Assembly: GCF_003240565.2 (NCBI RefSeq)
Contig: NZ_CP117259.1
Coordinates: forward strand, 240,573-304,572
Direction: 5' to 3'
Origin: Rhizobium tumorigenes
GTDB taxonomy: Bacteria; Pseudomonadota; Alphaproteobacteria; Rhizobiales; Rhizobiaceae
DNA length: 64,000 bases
The translations under genes and the position numbers were made by a program. Below, piece by piece: positions 1 through 12,533 of the stretch (the stretch's first letter is position 1; every line of letters starts with the position of its first letter). The notes under the pieces are model-generated. The model did no database searches. It was not told the DNA's origin and worked only from the letters and a program-made list of their open reading frames with translations.

Positions 1-65
1 TGCGACAGGGCCCCGCTGCCCATGGCACCGAGACCGATGACGGCGACGTCGAATTGCGGTGTCAT
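1..65 (-). CDS. FAD-dependent oxidoreductase, N-terminal fragment (cut by window edge)
   Basis: Only the first 21 residues are inside the window, running leftward from an ATG at 65. They read M-T-P-Q-F-D-V-A-V-I-G-L-G-A-M-G-S, a Rossmann start with the GxGxxG dinucleotide-binding pattern. The form IGLGAMGS is typical of monomeric sarcosine oxidase and N-methyltryptophan oxidase relatives (DAO family), which oxidatively demethylate secondary amino acids. The gene starts 16 bp after the HutH-like gene on the same strand, so it is probably the last seen member of the transporter operon at 82-4713. The family is a fair guess from the N-terminus; the substrate cannot be told. Confidence 0.6.
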   Translation of the reverse strand, partial: MTPQFDVAVIGLGAMGSGALS

Positions 66-81
66 GGCTACATTCCCGATT

Positions 82-1572
82 TCAGTAAGGCGGCGGTGGC
101 ATGTCGCGGATCATTGATTTGATCGCCTCGATGTCGCCGCCAAGCGGACGGTCGTCGGCATAATGCGCGACGCGGCTGCGGACAAGCCGGTAAATCGTCT
201 CTGTGCCATCGGCGCGCGCTGCCGCCTTAGCCAGGAAGTCATGTGCCTGTGCGGCGGCCATCAGTTCAATCGCAAGGATGTACTCGGCGTTGTCGAGCAC
301 TGCGAGCAGCTTGTTGGCGGCGGCGGTCGGGTGGGCGAGAAAATCCTCCTGCAACGCCGATGTCAGGCCGCCATCGGTACTGGCGGGAGCAGCCAGCCGA
401 CGGTTTTCGTTGGCGAGCGCTGCGGCACTGTACTGGGCGATCATCAGGCCGGAATGGCTGCCTGCGTCGCTGGCGAGGAACGGCGGCAGGCCGCTCACCA
501 GTGGATTGACCAGCCGGTCCATCCGGCGTTCGCTCATCGCAGCGATCTGCGCCAACGCAATCGCGAGGCCGTCCGCCGCCTGGCCGAGTGCCGGCGACAC
601 GGCATGGGCCTCCGAGGAGACGACGGGATGGTCCGGCGTGCCGTAGACGGCGGGATTGTCGGTGACGGAGGCCAGTTCCTGGTCGACCACGCGGGCGGAA
701 TTTTCGAAGACATCGCGGGCTGCGCCATGGGCATGCGGGATGGCACGCAGGCTGAGGGCATCCTGCGTGCGTTTGCCGAGCGCTGCCGCAATCAGACCGC
801 TGCCGGCGAGCCGCCGCCGTAACGATGCGCCTACTTTCTGGACGCCATCCGAAACCTTGAGGGCGAGCACGGTCTCGTCGAAAGCTGCCATCTGTCCGCC
901 GGCTGCCTCGAACGTCAGGGCGGCGATGGCATCGGCCCAGTCGAGAAGATTGGCTGCACGCGCCAGTGCCACGCAGGAAAGCCCGGTGGCGCAGGCCGTG
1001 CCGTTGACAAGGCTGAGACCCTCCTTGGCACCCAGCACCAGCGGGGCAAGGCCGATTGCTGCAAGCGCCTGGCGACCGGTCATAGGCTGTCCGGCAACAT
1101 GGGCCGCACCCTCGCCGATCAGCACCAGTGCCGTGTGGGCATTGTGGGTGAGGTAGCCTGCCGATCCCTTGCAGGGGACGTCTGGAATGCAGTCCTTGTC
1201 GAGAAACGTCCGGAGGTGGTCGACGATCTCGCGGCGCACACCGGAATAGCCGTGGGAAAAATTGGCGATCTGGGCGGCGATGATCGCCCTGACTTCGCGC
1301 CGGGCCAGAAGCGGTCCGACGCCGCAGGCATGGCTGAGGATGATGTTGCGTGACAGCTTGCTTTGCGATGCGAGGTCGACCACCGTATCCGACAGGGCGC
1401 CGACGCCGGTGTTGATGCCGTAGGCCCGCTTGCCCGTTTCGACGATGCGGGCAACGATGCGGCTGGCATTGTCGATGCGCGCCCAGACTTCGGGGGCGAG
1501 CGACAGGTCTTCGCCGCCTGCGATGGCCGCGACGTCGCGCCAGCCGAGCTTTGATTCAAGAGTGACGGTCAT
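82..1572 (-). CDS. HutH-like aromatic amino acid lyase homologue lacking the MIO motif
   Basis: The 496-residue protein has the length and fold signature of histidine ammonia-lyase: YGINTG at 51-56 with the catalytic-position Tyr, NGT at 190-192, and QED near 410. However, the site that normally reads [11 protein letters not shown], whose Ala-Ser-Gly cyclises to the MIO electrophile, here reads KGSAGYLTHNAH (135-146). It is about three residues shorter and has no Ala-Ser-Gly. The Tyr of the usual QDPYxxR motif is also missing (QDALSLR). I re-read the codons here and see no frameshift. The gene begins 4 bp after the ABC ATPase gene, so it is co-transcribed with an amino-acid importer. Without MIO, ordinary histidine deamination is unlikely. 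A non-MIO elimination, for example loss of trimethylamine from a betaine as in ergothionase, is my inference. Confidence 0.85.
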   Translation of the reverse strand: MTVTLESKLGWRDVAAIAGGEDLSLAPEVWARIDNASRIVARIVETGKRAYGINTGVGALSDTVVDLASQSKLSRNIILSHACGVGPLLARREVRAIIAAQIANFSHGYSGVRREIVDHLRTFLDKDCIPDVPCKGSAGYLTHNAHTALVLIGEGAAHVAGQPMTGRQALAAIGLAPLVLGAKEGLSLVNGTACATGLSCVALARAANLLDWADAIAALTFEAAGGQMAAFDETVLALKVSDGVQKVGASLRRRLAGSGLIAAALGKRTQDALSLRAIPHAHGAARDVFENSARVVDQELASVTDNPAVYGTPDHPVVSSEAHAVSPALGQAADGLAIALAQIAAMSERRMDRLVNPLVSGLPPFLASDAGSHSGLMIAQYSAAALANENRRLAAPASTDGGLTSALQEDFLAHPTAAANKLLAVLDNAEYILAIELMAAAQAHDFLAKAAARADGTETIYRLVRSRVAHYADDRPLGGDIEAIKSMIRDMPPPPY

Positions 1573-1576
1573 GGGA

Positions 1577-2347
1577 TCAGCTTCCGAAATTGCCGATGAA
1601 CTGGCGGAACGCCGGCGAGCCGCCGCCGCCGAACATCTCTTCCGGGCTGCCGGAACTGTCGATCAGCCCTTCGCGCATGAAGACGACGCGGTTGGAGACG
1701 TTGCGGGCAAAGCTCATTTCGTGGGTGACGACCAGCATGGTCATGCCCTCTTCTGCCAGCGCCCGCATGACGCGCAGCACCTCGCCGACCAGTTCCGGAT
1801 CCAGCGCCGAGGTTGGTTCGTCGAACAGCATCACCTTCGGCTTCATCGCCAGCGCCCGGGCAATCGCCGCGCGCTGCTGCTGGCCGCCGGAGAGATGGGC
1901 CGGGTAGGCGTGGCGCTTGTCCGCAATGCCGACCTTCTCGAGCAGCGCTTCGGCGTCGGCGACGGCTTCCGCACGAGGCCGCTTCAGCACGTGGATCGGG
2001 CCTTCTATGACATTCTGCAGGATGGTCATGTGGGACCAGAGATTGAACGACTGGAACACCATGCCGAGTTCCGAGCGGATATGGTCGACCTGGCGGTTGC
2101 TCTCCGGCTTGCTCCGCCCGTTCTTGTGGATCATGCGGATCTGCTCGCCATCCACCCAGATCTCGCCGTCATTGGCGACTTCGAGCAGGTTGATGCAGCG
2201 AAGGAATGTCGACTTGCCGGAGCCGGAGGCGCCGAGCAGGGATATGACGTCGCCATCCTCGGCATCCAGCGAGATGCCGCGCAGCACCTCGTGGGTGCCG
2301 AAGCTCTTGCGGATATTGCGGACCGAAAGTCGGTTGACGCGGGCCAT
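1577..2347 (-). CDS. Polar amino acid ABC transporter, ATP-binding protein
   Basis: This 256-residue cytoplasmic ATPase powers import of a polar amino acid. Visible motifs are Walker [10 protein letters not shown] (39-47), a Q-loop in VFQSFNLW, the signature LSGGQQQR, Walker [13 protein letters not shown], and an H-loop THEM. The HisP/OccP-type insert around the [10 protein letters not shown] stretch is typical of histidine/arginine/opine transporters. It lies downstream of two permeases (22 bp after the second) and immediately upstream of the MIO-less HutH-like gene. The whole set probably imports histidine or a histidine derivative; specificity is inferred from context only. Confidence 0.93.
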
Positions 2348-2369
2348 GGTCGCTCCAGTTCAGACTGCG

Positions 2370-3074
2370 TTACGCCTTCAAAGCCTGCGGCGCTGCGCGG
2401 CGATGGCGGGAGAGGCGATATTCGAGCAAGCCAAAGGCCTGCAGGATGATGAAATTCAGGACGAGATAGATGACGGCGGCGCAGAGAAATACCTCCATCG
2501 TCCGGTAGGTGTGCGAGATCAGCCGCTGGGCGACGCCGGTTACCTCCCAGACGGTGACGAGGCTTGCGAGCGCCGTCGACTTCAACATCAGCACGATCTC
2601 GGTCGAATAGGCAGGCAGCGCATGGCGGAAGGCAATGGGCGCCAGGATGCGGCGGACCAGCAGGAAGCCGGACATGCCGATCGAGCGGGCCGCCTCGATC
2701 TCCTTCGGCGAAACGGCGCGGATACCGCCGCGAAAGATTTCGGCCGTGTAGCCGGCCGTGCAGAGCGCCAGCGACAGCACGGCGCAGACAAAGGGCTCGC
2801 GCAGCAGCGGCCAGAGAAACGAGTAGCGGATGATGCCGAACTGGCCGAGGCCGTAAAAGATCAGGAACATCTGGATCAGCAGCGGCGAGCCGCGAAACAC
2901 GAAAATATAGGCCTTGGCGAAGCCCGACAGGATCGGATTGCCGCCGGTGCGCATCCAGACGAGCCCCAGCGCCAGCAGGCCTCCTAGGGTGATCGACGTG
3001 ATGAACAGGGCCAGCGTCATCGGCAGGGCGGCGAGCAGCGTAGCCATGGTCGATGACAGGAAGGCGATATCCAT
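2370..3074 (-). CDS. Polar amino acid ABC transporter permease (HisM/OccM type)
   Basis: A 234-residue inner-membrane permease of the HisMQ family with about five hydrophobic segments. The EAA loop is seen as EIEAARSIGMSGFLLVRRI. The start at 3074 was chosen because it lies 2 bp after the stop of the preceding permease, and the residue run MDIAFLSSTMATLL looks like a normal permease N-terminus. A longer upstream reading overlaps the previous gene and is low-complexity. It forms the membrane pore as a heterodimer with the product of 3077-3802. Confidence 0.92.
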   Translation of the reverse strand: MDIAFLSSTMATLLAALPMTLALFITSITLGGLLALGLVWMRTGGNPILSGFAKAYIFVFRGSPLLIQMFLIFYGLGQFGIIRYSFLWPLLREPFVCAVLSLALCTAGYTAEIFRGGIRAVSPKEIEAARSIGMSGFLLVRRILAPIAFRHALPAYSTEIVLMLKSTALASLVTVWEVTGVAQRLISHTYRTMEVFLCAAVIYLVLNFIILQAFGLLEYRLSRHRRAAPQALKA

Positions 3075-3076
3075 GA

Positions 3077-3802
3077 TCAGGCCTTCCCCATTGTTGCCGA
3101 CGGCATGCTGCGGTTGGCGCGACGTTCGGCGCGGTTGAAAACCTGGTCCGAAAGGCTGGTCAGGATCAGGTAGAGGCACCCGCCGGCGATAAAGAACAGG
3201 AAATAATGCCGCGTCGAGCCGGCGGCCACCTGGCTGGTGCGCATCAGTTCGGCAAGCCCGGTAACAGAGATCAGGGCTGAATCCTTGAGGCTCAGCTGCC
3301 AGACATTGCCGAGGCCGGGGATGGCAAGCCTGAGCACCTGCGGCAGGATGATCCGGCGGAAGCGCAGTCGCGTGCCCATGCCGATCGCCGAGGCGGCTTC
3401 CAGTTCGCCCTTCGAGATCGCCAGGTAGGCGCCGCGAAATACTTCAGCCTGGTAGGAGCCTGAGATGACCCCCACGGCAAGGGCTCCGGCGGCAAAGGAC
3501 GGCAAGCCAAGGAAGCCGTCGTAGCCCAGTGCCTTGCCGATGGAGGTCAGGGCGCTCGAGCCGCCAAAATAGATGAGATAGATGATCAGCAGTTCAGGCA
3601 CGCCGCGAAAGACGGTGGTGTAGGCATGGCCGAGCGCCCACAGAAGCCTGTTGCCGGAAAGCTTGGCTGCGGCGACGAGGGTGCCGAGAATGGCGCCGAT
3701 TGCCAGCGCCGCTGCAGTGACGGCGAGCGTCAGCAGCGTTGCTACGAGAAGCAGGGCGCCCCACCCGGTCGAACCGAAGCCCAGCAGTTGCAATGTCGAC
3801 AT
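3077..3802 (-). CDS. Polar amino acid ABC transporter permease (HisQ/OccQ type)
   Basis: A 241-residue integral membrane protein with a HisMQ permease fold. The EAA loop ELEAASAIGMGTRLRFRRI contacts the ATPase. Hydrophobic segments lie near residues 12-40, 55-75, 85-110 and 185-215. It follows the binding-protein gene by 68 bp, a gap that holds a strong hairpin, and precedes the second permease by 2 bp. It is the first membrane gene of the binding protein-Q-M-P order usual for opine and histidine transporters. Confidence 0.92.
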   Translation of the reverse strand: MSTLQLLGFGSTGWGALLLVATLLTLAVTAAALAIGAILGTLVAAAKLSGNRLLWALGHAYTTVFRGVPELLIIYLIYFGGSSALTSIGKALGYDGFLGLPSFAAGALAVGVISGSYQAEVFRGAYLAISKGELEAASAIGMGTRLRFRRIILPQVLRLAIPGLGNVWQLSLKDSALISVTGLAELMRTSQVAAGSTRHYFLFFIAGGCLYLILTSLSDQVFNRAERRANRSMPSATMGKA

Positions 3803-3830
3803 CTGTTATTCCGAAATGGCGAAAACATTG

Positions 3831-3861
3831 GATGCCCCCGGTCCTATCGACCGGAGGCATC
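3831..3861 (-). promoter_or_regulatory. Intercistronic hairpin after the binding-protein gene
   Basis: A 13-bp stem with one mismatch and a 5-nt loop: GATGCC-C-CCGGTC, loop CTATC, GACCGG-A-GGCATC. It sits just after the binding-protein stop codon and before the permease start on the minus strand. Hairpins in this position commonly protect binding-protein mRNA or partly terminate transcription, so that binding protein is made in excess. The function here is inferred from position. Confidence 0.6.
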
Positions 3862-3870
3862 TGTTGGAAG

Positions 3871-4713
3871 TTATTTCGGGCTGACGTCGGTCTTGAACCA
3901 CTTCATCGACAGGGTCTTGACGGTGCCATCGGCGAGTGCCGACTTGATGGCCGCGCTGAACATGTCGCGCAGGTCTGTATCGGACTTGCGAACGCCGAGG
4001 CCTTCGCCGATACCCCAGATGGGTCCGGCAATCTGCGGGCCGGAGAAGCCGAGCGCGCCATTGGCTGCTTCGAAGGCGGTTTCGAAATAGACGGCGTCGT
4101 CAAAGCCGAGATCTATACGGCCGTTCTGCAGGTCGAGGTCGCGATCGGCGCCGGTCTTGTATTCGCGGATCGTGGCGATGTCTGCAAAGTTGTCATAGAC
4201 GAACTTGGCGTAGACTGTGGCGGCCTGGATACCGATTGTCTTGCCTTTGAAGGCTTTCTTCAGCGCTTCGATCTCCGCCACGCCCGTCTGGCCGGGTGCC
4301 ATGGTGATGGTCTTGCCGGTGCCGGCAGCATTCGCCAGCGGGCTGTCCTTGGCGACGGCAAAGGCTGCTGGCGTCGCAGCATATGGAACGGTGAAGTCGA
4401 TGACCTGCTTGCGCTCGTCGGTGATCGACAGGGCATCCATGATGATGTCGAACTTGCCGGCGTTGAGCGCCGGGATCATGCCGTCCCAATCGGAGGCCAC
4501 GAGCTTGCACTCGACCTTGGCCTTCTCGCAGAGCACCTTGGCCAGCTCCGGCTCGAAGCCGCCCAGCGTGCCATCGGCATTGGTCATGTTCCAGGGCGCA
4601 TAGGCGCCTTCGAGCGTGATGGTGACGGTTTTCCAGTCCTTGGCTTCGGCGGCAGGTCCGGCAAGGGTGGCCAGCGCCACGGCGCCCGATAGTAGCAATG
4701 CATTGATTTTCAT
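3871..4713 (-). CDS. Polar amino acid ABC transporter, periplasmic substrate-binding protein
   Basis: A 280-residue SBP_bac_3 protein with a signal peptide (MKINALLLSGAVALATLAGP, then AEA-K). Family features follow: EGAYAPWNMTNADGTLGGFEPELAKVLCEKA at the N-lobe, then WDGMIPALNAGKFDIIMDALSIT. These match lysine/arginine/ornithine- and octopine/nopaline-type binding proteins. The ATG at 4713 was chosen because it follows an AGAGGAGAG ribosome-binding site and opens the signal peptide; an in-frame start at 4845 would bury it. It is the first gene of an operon running to a HutH-like lyase. The likely ligand is histidine or a relative, by context only. Confidence 0.93.
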   Translation of the reverse strand: MKINALLLSGAVALATLAGPAAEAKDWKTVTITLEGAYAPWNMTNADGTLGGFEPELAKVLCEKAKVECKLVASDWDGMIPALNAGKFDIIMDALSITDERKQVIDFTVPYAATPAAFAVAKDSPLANAAGTGKTITMAPGQTGVAEIEALKKAFKGKTIGIQAATVYAKFVYDNFADIATIREYKTGADRDLDLQNGRIDLGFDDAVYFETAFEAANGALGFSGPQIAGPIWGIGEGLGVRKSDTDLRDMFSAAIKSALADGTVKTLSMKWFKTDVSPK

Positions 4714-5034
4714 GGTCTCTCCTCTGGGGGCAAAATTGGCCGCGTCGTTGCACTGCCGGTCTGTGCCGGGTTGCTGCCTCGACATGGCCTCGGTGTAAAA
4801 TGGTTTAAAGCCAATGCACCATATGAGATTTCGGAGGCGCGGCAAGCCGCCCCTTATTTAATATGCAAATTTGATTGCTGCTTAAGGATTGGGCGATCCA
4901 GTCTGCGTCTCGCATAGGCCTCGCTGCGACATAAGTCTATATTTATGAAAATGCCGGATATGCCTCAGAAACTTCAAGCATTTCTGATAGACCTGTGATT
5001 CTCAAATTTCGGTGATGAACGGAGACAGCCGCCG
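4714..5034. other. Divergent intergenic region
   Basis: These 321 bp separate the minus-strand transporter operon from the plus-strand microprotein genes and should hold promoters for both. Two AT-rich patches stand out, near 4855-4880 and 4930-5010. On the minus strand TTAAGC and TATTAA, 16 bp apart near 4860-4890, could be a sigma-70 promoter, but the match is weak. I see no clear operator and no copy of the TGTATATACA palindrome found upstream of hutI. Confidence 0.4.
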
Positions 5035-5428: not shown

Positions 5429-6775
5429 CTAAGCCGAAATCAGTCGGGTCATAGTGGCAACAAAACGCTTTCGGATCCCGTCGCGCCCGACATGCTTCCC
5501 ACCGCTGACCTGCTTGCGCCCGAGTGCCCAGACGTTGTCGATCCGCACACCTCCGGCAAAGATCCAGTGATCCAGCAACTGGTCGCCTTCGAGATAGGGC
5601 ACAGCGGAGACATCCAGCGATACGAGATCGGCGTAGTTTCCTTTTTCCAGCCCTGTCGCGGTTTGGAGCGCGATACCACCGCCCATCAACGCCTGATCGA
5701 ACAGAGCGCGACCGGTAGAGCCGTTTTGCGGTGCTGCAACGTTTCGGGCGCGGAGGTCGAGGCGCTGAGAATATTCCAGCTGGCGCAACTCCTCCGGCAC
5801 CGAGATCAGGACGTTCGAGTCCGAGCCGATGCCAAACCGCCCTCTCTCTGACAGGAACTGCGGGGCAGGAAATGTCCCGTCTCCAAGGTTGGCCTCGGTG
5901 ATCGGGCAGAGGCCTGCCACCGCGCCGCTGCTGGCCATGCGTATCGTTTCATCCTCTGTCATATGTGTCGCATGGATCAGGCACCAGCGCGCATCGACAT
6001 CGGCATGGTCGAGGAGCCATTCGACGGGCCGTGCGCCGGACCAGGCAATGCAGTCCTCTAGCTCCTTGACCTGCTCTGCGACGTGGATGTGGATTGGACC
6101 GTTCCGCCCAAGCTCTGCGGCAAAGCTTAGTTCTTCCGGCGTCACTGCCCGCAGGCTGTGCGGCGCAAGGCCGAGCACGGCGCCTTCCAGCGCGCCAATG
6201 ACCTGCCGGCATCCCTCCATCAGCGTCGCAAAGCTATCCGGCGTATTGATAAAGCGGCGTTGGCCCTCGATCGGCTGACCGCCTCCGAAACCGGACCGCG
6301 CGTAAAGCACCGGCAGCAGCGTCAGGCCGATACCGGCTTGACTGCTGGCAGCACCGATGCGTTCGGCCAATTCGGCAATGTTGGCATAGGGCCTGCCGTC
6401 CTTATCGTGATGCAGGTAGTGGAATTCCCCGACGCGGCAAAAGCCGGCCTCCAGCATCTCCATGTAGAGTTCGGCCGCAACCGCCTCGACATCCTCGGGC
6501 GTCATCGACAGGGCGAACTTGTACATCACCGTCCGCCAGCTCCAGAAGCTGTCGCTGCCGGGGCCTCGCACTTCGGCAAGACCTGCCATCGCCCGCTGGA
6601 AAGCGTGGCTGTGCAGGTTGGGCATCGCGGGTACGAGCACTGCGTGGCGCTCGTCGGCTGCCTCGGCCGGTACGCCCGCAGCGATGCTGACGATGCGCCC
6701 GTCGGCAATCTCTATGCGTACGTCCTTTTGCCAGCCGGTTGGCAATAGGGCCGATCCTGCGTGAAGTCCGACCAT
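5429..6775 (-). CDS. hutF: Formimidoylglutamate deiminase (HutF)
   Basis: HutF hydrolyses N-formimidoyl-L-glutamate to N-formyl-L-glutamate and ammonia, the fourth step of the five-step histidine pathway. The 448-residue product is an amidohydrolase: metal motif NLHSHAFQRAMAGL near residues 53-66, an HxH-like VAEQ segment (IHIHVAEQ), and a late GIGSDSN metal aspartate. The ATG at 6775 was preferred to the one at 6781 because AAGGGG ends 7 bases before the former but only one base before the latter. It faces hutI across a 121-bp gap with a HutC-type palindrome, and its product is the substrate of HutG encoded downstream of hutH. Confidence 0.95.
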   Translation of the reverse strand: MVGLHAGSALLPTGWQKDVRIEIADGRIVSIAAGVPAEAADERHAVLVPAMPNLHSHAFQRAMAGLAEVRGPGSDSFWSWRTVMYKFALSMTPEDVEAVAAELYMEMLEAGFCRVGEFHYLHHDKDGRPYANIAELAERIGAASSQAGIGLTLLPVLYARSGFGGGQPIEGQRRFINTPDSFATLMEGCRQVIGALEGAVLGLAPHSLRAVTPEELSFAAELGRNGPIHIHVAEQVKELEDCIAWSGARPVEWLLDHADVDARWCLIHATHMTEDETIRMASSGAVAGLCPITEANLGDGTFPAPQFLSERGRFGIGSDSNVLISVPEELRQLEYSQRLDLRARNVAAPQNGSTGRALFDQALMGGGIALQTATGLEKGNYADLVSLDVSAVPYLEGDQLLDHWIFAGGVRIDNVWALGRKQVSGGKHVGRDGIRKRFVATMTRLISA

Positions 6776-6855
6776 CGGCATTCCCCTTCTATTTGCGGGC
6801 GATCCGTCCTAGGTTCCTCGCCAGCCGCCATATTTCCGCTTGTCACACGGTTATT

Positions 6856-6867
6856 ATGTATATACAT
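6856..6867. promoter_or_regulatory. Putative HutC operator
   Basis: The perfect 12-bp palindrome ATGTATATACAT lies midway between divergent hutF and hutI. HutC, a GntR-family urocanate-responsive repressor, is known in Pseudomonas and others to bind TGTATATACA-like dyads. Downstream of TTGTCA at 6840-6845, the palindrome occupies the expected -10 position for hutI, so bound repressor would block the promoter. No hutC gene is in the window, so the regulator must be encoded elsewhere. Confidence 0.6.
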
Positions 6868-6896: not shown

Positions 6897-8159
6897 ATGA
6901 CCGGGAACAATTCCTCCGAACAGAATACCGCATTTCTAGGCCGCCCACGTCTGCTGCGCAACGCCCGCCTTGCGACGCTGGACAGCCGCCTGCCCGGCCT
7001 CGGTATCGTCGAAAAGGCTGCAATGGTCGTCGAGAACGGCCGCATTGCCTATGCCGGCCCGGAGACCGAATTGCCGGTCTGGGCCATCGAGACCGCCGAC
7101 ATCCTCGACCTCGAAGGGCGCTGGGTTACCCCCGGACTGGTCGATTGCCACACGCACATCATCTATGGCGGTAATCGCGCCCGCGAGTTTGAAATGCGGC
7201 TCGAAGGCGCCTCCTACGAAGAAGTTGCGCGCGCTGGTGGCGGCATCGTTTCCTCGGTCACTGCCACCAACGCCCTGTCTGTCGAGGGTCTTGTCGCGGC
7301 CGCCTTGCCGAGGCTGGACACGCTGCTGGTCGAAGGCGTGACCACCATCGAAATCAAGTCCGGCTACGGCCTGAACATCGACGCCGAACTGCGGATCTTG
7401 CGCGCCGCCCGGGCTCTTGAACGCATCCGTCCGGTCCGCGTCGTCACCTCCTATCTCGCAGCACACGCGACGCCCGTCGACTACAAGGGGCGCAACGACG
7501 CCTATATCGACGAGATTGTGCTTCCCGGCATGCGGCAGGGTGCGTCGGAAGGCCTGATCGATGCCGTTGACGGATTTTGCGAAGGTATCGCATTCGCGCC
7601 ATCCGAAATCGCCCGGGTGTTCGACGCCGCCAAGGCGCTCGGCCTGCCGGTCAAGCTGCATGCCGAGCAGCTTTCCAATCTCGGCGGTGCCAGGCTCGCG
7701 GCCTCCTATGGCGCCCTGTCGGCCGATCATCTCGAATATCTGGACGCTGCAGGCGTGGCGGCGCTTGCCGCGAGCGGTACGGTGGCTGTGCTGCTGCCCG
7801 GCGCCTTCTATGCCATCAACGAGAAGCAGAAGCCGCCGGTCCAACTCTTGCGCGATGCTGGGGTGAGGATCGCCATTGCCACCGACAGCAATCCCGGAAC
7901 CTCGCCGCTGACATCCCTGCTGCTTACCATGAACATGTCGGCGACCCTGTTTGGCCTGACGGTCGAGGAGTGCATTGCCGGGACGACCCGCGAGGCAGCG
8001 CGGGCTCTCGGCCTGCTCGCCGAAACCGGGACCATCGAGGTCGGCAAATCGGCAGATCTCGCCGTCTGGAATGTCGATAGCCCGGCCGAACTTGTCTACC
8101 GGATTGGTTTCAATCCGCTGTATGCGCACCTGTTCAAGGGCGGGAGGATCGATCGATGA
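6897..8159 (+). CDS. hutI: Imidazolonepropionase (HutI)
   Basis: HutI opens the ring of 4-imidazolone-5-propionate to give N-formimidoyl-L-glutamate in the cytoplasm. The 420-residue product carries the amidohydrolase metal motif [14 protein letters not shown] near 78-91, [12 protein letters not shown] after it, KLHAEQLSN with the conserved His, and [10 protein letters not shown] with the metal Asp near 330. Length is normal for the family. The ATG follows AAAGGCGCAAAGCTG. The stop overlaps the hutH start in an ATGA junction at 8156-8159, so the two are translationally coupled. Confidence 0.96.
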
Positions 8160-9691
8160 CCATCACACTCCATCCAGGCTCGGTGACGCTCGCCGATCTC
8201 TCGATCATCTACTGGACGGGTGAACCTGTCGTCCTCGATCGCTCGTTCGACGCCGGTATCGAGCGTGCCGCCGCCCGTATCGCCGAGATTGCCGCTGGAA
8301 ATGCGCCGGTCTACGGCATCAACACCGGCTTCGGCAAACTGGCGTCGATCAAGATCGACCGTGCCGATGTCGCGACGCTGCAGCGCAATCTGATCCTCTC
8401 CCATTGCTGCGGCGTCGGCCAGCCCCTGACCGAGAATATCGTCCGGCTGATCATGTCCCTGAAGCTGGTGTCGCTCGGGCGCGGCGCCTCCGGCGTGCGG
8501 CTCGAAATGCTGCGGCTGATCGAGGCAATGCTTGAGAGGGGGGTTATCCCCGTCATTCCGGAAAAAGGCTCGGTCGGTGCTTCCGGCGACCTGGCGCCGC
8601 TGGCCCACATGGCGGCGGTCATGATGGGTGAAGGCGAGGCATTTTTTGCCGGCGAACGAATGAGCGGTGGTGCGGCATTGGAAAAGGCCGGGCTGACGCC
8701 GATGGTGCTGGCCGCCAAGGAAGGCCTGGCGCTTATCAACGGCACGCAGACCTCGACGGCACTGGCGCTCGCAGGCCTCTTCCGCGCCCACAGGGCCGCC
8801 CAGGCGGCGCTGATCACAGGGGCGCTGTCGACCGATGCGGCGATGGGCTCGTCGGCGCCATTCCATGCCGATATCCACACCCTGCGCGGCCATCAGGGCC
8901 AGATCGACACTGCTGCTGCGCTGCGGGCGCTGCTCGACAATTCGGTCATCCGCGCAAGCCATATCGAGGGCGACGAGCGCGTCCAGGATCCCTATTGCAT
9001 CCGCTGCCAGCCACAGGTCGACGGCGCCTGCCTGGATCTGTTGCGCCAGGTGGCTAAAACCCTGCAGATAGAGGCCAATGCGGTCACCGACAATCCGCTG
9101 GTGCTGTCCGATAATTCGGTCGTCTCCGGCGGCAATTTCCACGCGGAGCCGGTGGCTTTCGCCGCCGACCAGATCGCGCTCGCCATCTGCGAGATCGGCG
9201 CCATCGCCCAGCGTCGCATTGCGCTGCTGGTCGATCCGACGCTGTCGCACGGCCTGCCGGCATTCCTTGCCAAAAAGCCCGGGCTCAATTCCGGGCTGAT
9301 GATCGCCGAGGTAACATCTGCCGCGCTGATGTCTGAAAACAAGCAGATGTCGCACCCGGCCTCGGTCGATTCCACACCGACTTCGGCCAACCAGGAAGAC
9401 CACGTCTCCATGGCCTGTCACGGTGCGCGCCGGTTGCTGCAGATGACCGACAACCTGTTTGGCATCATCGGAATCGAAGCGCTGACGGCGGCCCAGGGGA
9501 TCGAGTTCCGCGCGCCGCTGGTCACCAGCCCCGAACTCACCGCCGCCGTCGCCGCCATCCGCCGCGTCGTGCCGACGCTCGACGAGGACCGCTACATGGC
9601 AAACGACCTTGCAGCAGCCAGCGACCTGGTATCATCTGGCACACTGAATGCATCGGTGTCCGAGGGTATCCTGCCGGGTCTGGAGGGTTGA
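8156..9691 (+). CDS. hutH: Histidine ammonia-lyase (HutH)
   Basis: HutH removes ammonia from L-histidine to give trans-urocanate, the first step of the pathway. The 511-residue product has the full active site: Tyr53 in YGINTGFG, the MIO-forming Ala142-Ser143-Gly144 in [29 protein letters not shown] with its Tyr and Arg, and NQEDHVS near the C-terminus. It contrasts with the MIO-less paralogue at 82-1572 and shows that true histidase activity is already encoded here. It overlaps hutI by 4 bp. Confidence 0.97.
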
Positions 9692-10040: not shown

Positions 10041-10847
10041 ATGAGCGCACCTGTTTTCGAAGTCCGCCGGGGCTCCTCGCCCGTTGTGCTCGCCTTCCCC
10101 CATACAGGCACCGACGTACCAGCGGATATCTGGGAGCGACTAAACGACAATGGCCGCATTCTCGCCGATACCGACTGGCACATCCACCGGCTCTACGACG
10201 GCCTGCTCGACGACGCGACGACGGTGCGGGCCACCTTCCATCGGTACGTTATCGACGCCAATCGTGATCCCGATGGATCGAGCCTTTATCCTGGTCAAAA
10301 TACCACCGGCCTGATCCCGGGCACGGATTTCGACGGCAAGCCGATCTGGAGGGATGGTGCCGAGCCTTCCGACGGCGACACCTACGCCCGGTTGTCGGCG
10401 TTTCATGCGCCCTATCATGCGGCCCTTGCTGCCGAGATCGCACGGGTCAAGGCGATCCATGGCATCGCCGTCCTCTATGACTGCCACTCGATCCGTGCCC
10501 ACATTCCCTTCCTGTTCGAGGGCACGCTTCCGGATCTCAATATCGGCACCGACATGGGCAAGACCTGCGCGCCGGCGATCGAGGCTGCAACCGTTGCCAT
10601 CGCCGCTGAAGCCGCCGGCTACACCAGCACGCTGAACGGCCGTTTCAAGGGCGGCTGGACAACCCGCCATTATGGCCAGCCGGCATCGGGCGTCCATGCC
10701 ATCCAGATGGAGCTGGCGCAATCGACCCATCTTGCCGCCGAAGCTCCGCCCTTCGCCTATGATCCTGAAAAGGCCGAGGCGCTGCGCGTTCCGCTCAAGT
10801 CCATTCTGTCGCGCATCGAACAGATCGCGCTCGACCTCATCAGCTAA
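10041..10847 (+). CDS. hutG: N-formylglutamate deformylase (HutG)
   Basis: HutG hydrolyses N-formyl-L-glutamate to glutamate and formate, ending the pathway that passes through HutF. The 268-residue product belongs to the N-formylglutamate amidohydrolase family: FPHTGTDVP near residue 19, DTDWHIHRLYD, VIDANRDPDG, and LYDCHSIRAHIP supply likely metal and catalytic residues. GGAG precedes the ATG. It is 12 bp from hutU and separated from hutH by a repeat-bearing gap. Confidence 0.95.
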   Translation: MSAPVFEVRRGSSPVVLAFPHTGTDVPADIWERLNDNGRILADTDWHIHRLYDGLLDDATTVRATFHRYVIDANRDPDGSSLYPGQNTTGLIPGTDFDGKPIWRDGAEPSDGDTYARLSAFHAPYHAALAAEIARVKAIHGIAVLYDCHSIRAHIPFLFEGTLPDLNIGTDMGKTCAPAIEAATVAIAAEAAGYTSTLNGRFKGGWTTRHYGQPASGVHAIQMELAQSTHLAAEAPPFAYDPEKAEALRVPLKSILSRIEQIALDLIS

Positions 10848-10859
10848 GGGGATTTCGTC

Positions 10860-12533
10860 ATGACCAATTCACGCCACAACATCCGCGAGATCCGGGCGCC
10901 ACGCGGGCCGGAGCTCAACACCAAGAGCTGGATGACGGAAGCGCCGCTGCGCATGCTGATGAACAATCTCGACCCTGACGTCGCCGAGAACCCAAACGAA
11001 CTCGTCGTCTACGGCGGTATCGGCCGGGCGACACGCACCTGGGAAGACTTCGACAGCATCGTCGCGACACTGAAGACGCTCACCGAGGAAGAGACGCTGC
11101 TGGTGCAATCCGGCAAGCCGGTCGGCGTGTTCCGCACCCACAAGGATGCGCCGCGCGTGCTGATCGCCAATTCCAACCTCGTGCCACACTGGGCGACATG
11201 GGATCATTTCAACGAGCTCGATAAGAAGGGCCTTGCGATGTATGGCCAGATGACGGCCGGCTCGTGGATCTATATCGGCGCCCAAGGCATCGTCCAGGGC
11301 ACTTATGAGACCTTCGTCGAAGCCGGACGCCAGCACTATGGCGGCAGCCTCAAGGGCAAATGGATCCTCACCGGCGGTCTCGGCGGCATGGGTGGCGCTC
11401 AGCCGCTTGCCGCCGTCATGGCCGGTGCCTGCTGCCTCGCCGTCGAATGCGACGAAACCCGCGCCGATTTCCGCCTGCGCACCCGCTATGTCGACGAAAA
11501 GACCGACAGCCTCGACGAGGCGCTGGCCAAGATCGATGCCTGGACCAAGGCCGGCGAGGCAAAGTCGATCGCGCTGATCGGCAATGCCGCCGAAATTTTC
11601 CCCGAGCTTTTCAAGCGCGGCGTCCGGCCGGATATCGTCACCGACCAGACCTCCGCTCACGATCCGCTGCACGGCTACCTGCCGCTAGGCTGGACCGTGG
11701 CCGAATGGAAATCCAAACAGGAGACTGCGCCGAAGGAAGTCGAGGCCGCTGCGCGCGCCTCGATGAAGATCCACGTCGCCGCCATGGTCGATTTCTGGAA
11801 CGCCGGTGTGCCGACGCTCGATTACGGCAACAATATCCGCCAGGTCGCGAAAGACGAGGGTCTGGAGAATGCCTTCGCTTTCCCCGGCTTCGTCCCGGCC
11901 TATATCCGGCCGCTGTTCTGCCGCGGCATCGGCCCGTTCCGCTGGGCGGCGCTGTCGGGCGATCCGGAGGATATCTACAAGACCGACGCCAAGGTGAAGG
12001 AACTGACGCCCGGTAATACCCATTTGCACAACTGGCTCGACATGGCGCGTGAACGCATCGCCTTCCAGGGCCTGCCCGCCCGCATCTGCTGGGTGGGTCT
12101 CGGCGACCGCGACCGGATCGGTCTGGCCTTCAACGAAATGGTCAAGAGCGGTGAGCTTTCCGCGCCCGTCGTCATCGGCCGCGATCATCTCGATAGTGGC
12201 TCCGTCGCATCGCCGAACCGCGAAACCGAGGCGATGAAGGATGGCTCGGACGCCGTCTCCGACTGGCCGCTGCTCAACGCCTTGCTGAACACTGCCTCCG
12301 GCGCCACCTGGGTATCGATCCATCACGGCGGCGGCGTCGGCATGGGCTTTTCGCAGCACGCCGGCATGGTCATCTGCTGCGACGGCTCGGAAGACGCCGC
12401 CCGCCGCATCGCCCGCGTCCTGTGGAACGACCCCGCCACCGGCGTCATGCGCCACGCCGACGCTGGCTACGAGATCGCCGTCGATTGCGCCAAGGAAAAG
12501 GGTCTCCGTTTGCCGGGAATTCTCGGCAACTGA
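10860..12533 (+). CDS. hutU: Urocanate hydratase (HutU)
   Basis: HutU adds water to urocanate to give 4-imidazolone-5-propionate, using tightly bound NAD+ as an electrophile. The 557-residue length is normal. Visible family features include [13 protein letters not shown], the NAD-binding segment [15 protein letters not shown] (glycine-rich, about residue 170), [14 protein letters not shown], and the C-terminal [15 protein letters not shown]. The Cys in [13 protein letters not shown] corresponds to the conserved active-site region. An AAGGGGA ribosome-binding site precedes the ATG. It is the last hut gene. Confidence 0.97.

Follow-up and report, generated by a model that had tools for sequence, protein, structure and literature searches.

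A clade of histidase homologues lacking the MIO residues and linked to hut genes: candidate trimethylamine-lyases for hercynine

The window, by which we mean the whole 64,000-nucleotide stretch of DNA that was analyzed (G000:C5:240573-304572), opens on a minus-strand operon with the order SBP-permease-permease-ATPase-HALX-oxidase (Table 1). HALX is our name for the MIO-less, HutH1-type sister clade of HutH, and its representative here is the fifth gene of the operon. The reading frame is open from ATG to stop and encodes 496 residues, of which residues 11-465 match the Pfam Lyase_aromatic family. The closest named protein among the matches listed is from Rhizobium tumorigenes (96% identity), and the closest named locus among the best 80 of more than 589 is that of Rhizobium sp. 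L51/94 (95%). The preliminary description placed the gene in an amino acid transporter operon, and amino acid-type ABC genes indeed occupy 1577-4845(-); the ArtM/HisM-like permease and the binding protein probably have their true starts further in than listed and near 4719, respectively. The oxidase gene enters the window with its 5' part, and the best model for the whole gene, one whose cut-off it exceeds, is N-methyl-L-tryptophan oxidase. Convergent with it at the end of the operon lies L004:10119-11159(+), which we take from its sequence to be glutamine-synthetase-like.

Approximately 0.6 kb past the far end of the HALX operon begins the set hutF-hutI-hutH-hutG-hutU. As had been claimed, a true HutH bearing Ala-Ser-Gly is encoded nearby, 6.6 kb from HALX. 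The hutU product scored 674 bits on the thiourocanate hydratase model, which requires 930 bits.

Table 1. Genes and sequence features of the window around HALX.
Feature	Position	Strand	Basis or remark
Sarcosine-oxidase/N-methyltryptophan-oxidase-like gene, 5' part	1..65	-	whole gene L004:11484-12638(-)
HALX, MIO-less HAL/PAL-fold lyase (HutH1-type), 496 aa	82..1572	-	ORF, Pfam, alignment, tree
Shortened segment KGSAGYLTHNAH, residues 135-146	codons 1135..1170	-	alignment to MIO-bearing HutH
ABC ATPase, HisP/GlnQ-like (polar amino acid type)	1577..2347	-	profile match below the equivalog cut-offs shown
ABC permease, ArtM/HisM-like	2370..3179	-	listed ORF overlaps next gene by ~100 bases
ABC permease, HisQ-like	3077..3802	-	ORF and profile match
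Periplasmic solute-binding protein, SBP_bac_3 family	3871..4845	-	profile match
hutF, formimidoylglutamate deiminase	5429..6781	-	above cut-off
Palindrome ATGTATATACAT, hutF-hutI intergenic	6856..6867	.	two mismatches from the presumed HutC site
hutI, imidazolonepropionase	6897..8159	+	above cut-off
hutH, canonical MIO-bearing histidase (GASGDL, QDPY)	8156..9691	+	profile and alignment
hutG, N-formylglutamate deformylase	10041..10847	+	above cut-off
hutU, urocanate hydratase	10860..12533	+	972 bits

When aligned with MIO-bearing HutH, residues 135-146 of the window's HALX (KGSAGY---LTHNAH as aligned) were three residues shorter than the corresponding segment of the window's HutH and were without Ala-Ser-Gly. 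The QDPY of HutH was replaced by QDAL, while Tyr51, NGT (Asn190), and QED (Glu409) were retained, along with the HAL/PAL fold and the imidazole-site residues by which HutH membership is recognized. The alignment thus bears out the earlier account of both the missing MIO residues and the motifs that remain. The statement that no frameshift is involved also holds, as the ORF is intact and the dN/dS values of the window's HALX against seven orthologues (0.10-0.19) indicate purifying selection. A frameshifted or decaying pseudogene was rejected on these values and on the presence of a HALX frame at 43/43 survey loci and 123/123 loci (80 of these being the best 80 of more than 589). The frame of L047 (the same as L018) is N-terminally short as called, giving the sole gap at Tyr51 and His81, and the HALX genes of G758 and G777 showed one stop codon inside the model match in one search and none in another.

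Orthologues were found at E <= 1e-159 in 23 of 151 Rhizobiaceae genomes, the source genome included, and the other 22 all keep GS[AV]GY. A sample of the class gave matches in 8 of 289 genomes at E <= 1e-168, again with the source genome included, and a sample of the phylum in 23 of 398 at E <= 1e-165, the next matches following at E of about 1e-120. All loci read above this gap (L143-L149 and L159-L179) carry GS[AV]GY and all seven read below it (L180-L186) carry ASG, the two kinds separating cleanly across it. HALX occurs in Alphaproteobacteria, in Pseudomonas, and in other families of the phylum; outside Alphaproteobacteria, Pseudomonas is the one group identified, through protein names, other class names being without assignment.

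The altered segment first noticed in a single protein proved to be kept by its homologues: 51 of 51 diverse HALX sequences had GS[AV]GY, no Ala-Ser-Gly, and Leu at the QDPY Tyr column (Leu273), whereas Ala-Ser-Gly was present in all 14 sequences of the HutH comparison set. Tyr51, Asn190, Arg276, and Glu409 were kept wherever aligned among the 51. The invariant Tyr140 and Tyr381 (the latter column being Tyr in 51/51) are new in HALX, and the Phe329 column holds Ala or Pro. Leu at the QDPY column was also found in the ten other MIO-less HALs compared, including the Treponema denticola ergothionase. GS[AV]GY was present in 359 of 360 database relatives (the best 120 of 5447, of 7068, and of 2413); among the relatives listed, P0261 has Asp replacing the His that follows the segment, and P0299 (462 aa) is the one in which the segment could not be located.

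In a tree of 75 sequences, comprising 51 of 123 HALX and 14 of 24 HutH (23 from loci and the window's own), the HALX sequences formed one group next to the HutH sequences with support of 100/99. The tree was rooted at the midpoint and included no PAL or TAL. The HALX group, which contains the window's copy with its GS[AV]GY[LI] and Leu at the QDPY site, stood apart from seven ergothionase-like cluster sequences, two HAL3 sequences, and the T. denticola ergothionase, the last and the two HAL3 being long branches of unsure placement. Together with a deletion of three residues in HALX versus one in ergothionase, the tree is most simply read as an independent loss of MIO in the HALX lineage.

Gene neighborhoods were surveyed at 43 loci from nine families, chosen non-randomly, with 24 loci from the source family Rhizobiaceae and 19 from eight others. 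HutC was encoded at 36 of these loci, at least one hut enzyme at 25, and either at 38; with the window's own hut genes, which fall outside L004, linkage to hut or HutC reached 39/43 loci and 8/9 families. A set of 80 named loci (the best 80 of more than 589, nearly all Rhizobium) had HutC in 79 and HutC or a hut enzyme in all 80. The survey loci without either were L152-L154 and L195. At L152-L154, which represent three genomes of family f39, HALX lies beside a LysR regulator, a PhyH-like dioxygenase, and an HlyD/OEP efflux system, the families of these neighbors having been tested in L152 alone. The HutC regulons of several groups, including Rhizobiales, often hold several HutH paralogues according to the accessible part of PMC5343134.

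The association can be close. Beside HutC at L054 and L157, HALX is part of the single run hutF-X-W-V-HALX-hutI-hutH-hutG-hutU; L190 has the order hutU-BCCT-HALX-hutI-hutG, and L188 and L196 have hutU-(cytosine/purine-type permease)-X-W-V-HALX-hutH. Of the 24 HALX genomes searched, 18 encode HutU within ~12 kb of HALX; in the other six (G071, G187, G315, G413, G685, and G728) the HutU gene is not near HALX. In four genomes (G183, G312, G410, and G661) the single above-cut-off HutU gene directly follows HALX, and the above-cut-off HutH is either on a different contig or separated from it by more than 600 kb. This arrangement is the strongest hint that HALX makes a substrate of HutU; because the sole HutU adjoins HALX and hutH is elsewhere, the product is probably urocanate.

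Canonical HutH scored above cut-off in 23 of the 24 HALX genomes tested. In G716 (locus L193), HALX lies in a hut cluster with HutU, HutI, HutG, and HutF; no HutH over the TIGR01225 cut-off was found in this genome, whose two other HAL homologues reach 378 and 357 bits. Another MIO-less HAL (GSLGAA-DL) is encoded at L193:5009-6544(-), directly 3' of hutG in the cluster holding HALX and a BCCT gene, and is adjoined by an OpuAC-type betaine-binding protein. The sarcosine-oxidase-like neighbor, in which the preliminary description saw a connection with methylated-amine metabolism, is an optional gene (7/43 survey loci; 44 of the best 80 of more than 589 named loci), making that connection weak evidence.

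HALX is adjoined by transporters of three types that bear no relation to one another, and two of these types handle quaternary amines. The survey loci have PAAT systems in 20 cases, including the source host with its polar-amino-acid ABC type, ProU/ChoXWV-like systems in 14, BCCT proteins in two, and none of these in seven. As regards the check suggested earlier, whether homologues keep the same transporter neighbors, the kind of transporter varies. At L051, the one ProU-type locus tested on NCBIfam, the ATPase passes TIGR01186, the model for the betaine/proline/choline subfamily (348 versus 327 bits), and the best models for the binding protein and permease were those for glycine betaine and choline, below cut-off. 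PDB matches of the L054 binding protein were glycine-betaine-binding proteins. PF02028 matched the BCCT proteins of L190 (E of 9e-117) and L193 (E of 2e-119), both of which fall short of the cut-off of the betaine BCCT model. Relatives of the ProU-type HALX exist in Sinorhizobium and Ensifer among the matches listed.

The HutC site, which we take to be a TTGTATATACAA-like palindrome, had one match in the window, where 0.16 were expected and 16 of 100 shuffles had one. A different palindrome, ATATGGTACCATAT, was located in the interval separating HutC from the binding-protein gene, with two or fewer mismatches in 69 of the best 80 of more than 589 named loci, and is exact in 28 of them; 64 of its 70 hits fell in one 500-base bin. 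It was also found in 10 of the 43 survey loci and at L037:14158-14171. The TTGTATATACAA-like site, a different sequence, turned up in 22 loci when 116 were scanned allowing one mismatch. ATATGGTACCATAT is possibly the operator of a HutC paralogue dedicated to HALX. The region preceding the window's HALX operon held neither palindrome, and the two above-cut-off HutC genes of the source genome are both on another contig than the window, with none near HALX; these two observations suggest that regulation has probably changed in the source host.

Hercynine is N-alpha-trimethylhistidine, the betaine of histidine. In MIO-bearing enzymes, the amino group of a primary amino acid becomes a leaving group through activation by MIO; trimethylamine can depart without it. 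The gene context and conserved residues suggest, with a probability that we put at roughly 0.6, that HALX is an MIO-independent trimethylamine-lyase for hercynine. This would be the simplest fit because the residues for histidine are kept, the ammonia-activating group is lost, and the gene lies in hut clusters, accompanied by quaternary-amine transporters in some of the families. We infer the substrate, product, and each step as follows. The adjoining transporter would bring in hercynine, whose imidazole and carboxylate would be held by His81, Asn190, Arg276, and Glu409; the His, Asn, and Glu of this set are presumably the imidazole-site residues of HutH. Tyr140, Tyr381, Leu273, and the Ala or Pro found in the Phe329 column could form a pocket that accommodates and holds N(CH3)3. 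A Tyr base would then take the beta proton and trimethylamine would be expelled, the quaternary ammonium, unlike the amino group of free histidine, requiring no MIO electrophile in order to leave. The product urocanate would pass to HutU, HutI, HutF, and HutG. Of 28 HALX genomes, 22 gave no match to PF10017, the family of EgtD, the methyltransferase that makes hercynine; hercynine used by HALX would therefore in most cases have to come from outside the cell. According to the title of a paper cited in PMC5596199, a Sinorhizobium histidine transporter also takes betaines and proline, which would be explained were histidine betaine its ligand.

Several observations count against hercynine as the substrate. 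The transporter of the source host is of the polar-amino-acid type seen at 20/43 survey loci, HutU is not near HALX in 6/24 genomes, HALX is not beside hut genes in the three f39 genomes or at L195, no HutC site precedes the window's operon, and loop 399-408, which adjoins Glu409, has pLDDT < 50 in the structure model. The preliminary proposal of a betaine lyase feeding the hut pathway is supported in its outline by the hut/HutC linkage, the quaternary-amine transporters of relatives, and the sole HutU of four genomes; its ergothioneine variant and its sarcosine oxidase link are not supported.

Ergothioneine was the other substrate first proposed. Thiourocanate hydratase (NF058530, above cut-off) is encoded in 7 of 23 HALX genomes, and none over this cut-off was found in the source genome. 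All seven hydratase genes are in clusters apart from HALX, on another contig or more than 1 Mb away, which hold a different MIO-less HAL (GS[IM]GCA-DI; QDPL or HDPL) along with three other conserved genes. The ergothionase of HALX-bearing Rhizobiaceae is therefore most likely another gene. By eye, the extra genes of these clusters (L135-L141) are amidohydrolase-like, peptidase/carbamoylase-like, and for a 365-aa protein; the clusters, in which a family model was applied to the hydratase alone, are probable ergothioneine breakdown clusters. Neither thiourocanate hydratase nor its ergothionase was found near HALX by BLAST labeling of 123 loci (80 being the best 80 of more than 589). A Lys common to the ergothionase 6S7J, the seven cluster sequences, and the two HAL3 sequences is Tyr381 in HALX. 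On these grounds ergothioneine is disfavored as the HALX substrate. The source genome has a third HAL homologue, L003:1405-2940(+) (G000:C1:483261-484745), which is without ASG (GSIGEA-DL), has QDPL and the ergothionase-type Lys, and has ergothionase as its best PDB match; the 19-kb stretch around it gave no match to hut or transporter reference proteins.

More generally, HALX could be an MIO-independent lyase for some other quaternary or activated histidine derivative or betaine, such as ergothioneine sulfonate, ergothioneine, dimethylhistidine, imidazolelactate, or a non-imidazole betaine. The absence of MIO implies only a leaving group better than ammonia, the f39 loci are without hut neighbors, and a pathway for ergothioneine sulfonate has been reported, cited by title for Agrobacterium radiobacter in PMC13405746. 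We nevertheless consider such a substrate unlikely in view of the linkage to canonical hut genes, the separate location of the ergothionase-like clusters, and the Tyr that replaces the ergothionase-type Lys in every HALX aligned. The retention of what we take to be the imidazole-site His, Asn, and Glu of HutH points the same way.

Active sites of HALs are built from three subunits of the tetramer, and canonical HutH accompanies HALX in nearly every genome tested, as would suit a HALX that has no catalysis of its own and modulates HutH, for instance as a member of the HutH tetramer or as a sensor of histidine or urocanate. This is quite improbable given the invariant catalytic Tyr, Arg, Asn, and Glu, the transporter that HALX has of its own, its distance from hutH in many genomes, and G716, where HALX and HutU occur with no canonical HutH over cut-off. 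Least credible is a histidase working without MIO or with an electrophile from other residues: although the names given among the matches listed are histidine ammonia-lyase, HAL/PAL/TAL-family, or aromatic amino acid ammonia-lyase, and HALX passes the TIGR01225 cut-off of 539.15 bits in 3 of 24 genomes (540-546 bits; the window's copy scores 461), the segment holds neither Ala-Ser-Gly nor a like triad, three residues are deleted, the QDPY Tyr is lost, and HutH1 is reported to be dispensable on histidine (see below). Those names and the three scores just over the cut-off account for the annotation of the clade as histidase.

If HALX is a hercynine lyase, the name histidine ammonia-lyase is misapplied in many database entries, and bacteria would have a route from hercynine to glutamate and trimethylamine, with histidine betaine entering the Hut pathway by a branch so far uncharted. 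The HAL scaffold would have been tested a second time by nature in eliminating an amine without MIO, and the spare gene of a textbook hut locus, long known, would gain a job. Hercynine is made by fungi and actinomycetes, as indicated by titles cited in PMC7653990, and has served as a laboratory standard (PMC13405746, accessible part). In the portions of the literature covered by our search, no hercynine lyase and no HutH1 lacking MIO is reported, and the HALX clade is assigned no function, though a prior report may exist.

Among known systems, canonical HutH differs from HALX in its Ala-Ser-Gly, its QDPY Tyr, and its Phe329. Ergothionase (T. denticola, PDB 6S7J/6S7Q; Burkholderia sp. HME13), described as lacking MIO in the accessible part of PMC13405746, shares with HALX a HAL fold without the MIO residues, but is 28% identical and falls outside the HALX group. 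Its deletion is of a single residue (GEG-D), it has Lys in place of Tyr381 and Ser in place of Asn190, and its likely Rhizobiaceae counterparts cluster with the hydratase, which HALX lacks as a partner, whereas HALX clusters with hut genes. The nearest system is HutH1 of Pseudomonas fluorescens SBW25, whose module hutTu-hutXWV-hutH1 has the same order as the genes around HALX in L188 and L196; the hut order given for this species in the accessible part of PMC8871633 matches their hutU-hutTu-hutXWV-HALX-hutH, and the HALX of L196 is 94% identical to a protein named Pseudomonas marginalis among the matches listed. The source host differs in having a PAAT-type ABC transporter and an oxidase gene. 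We conclude from gene order, the sequences compared including none named HutH1, that HutH1 is HALX. We slightly favor the wider proposition that HALX is a second branch of the HAL family to have evolved independently without MIO, is present in at least two proteobacterial classes, and consists of hercynine trimethylamine-lyases, which would explain why HutH1 and HutXWV exist. The same portion of PMC8871633 reports that HutH1 is dispensable for growth on histidine, as would follow from the lack of MIO in HALX.
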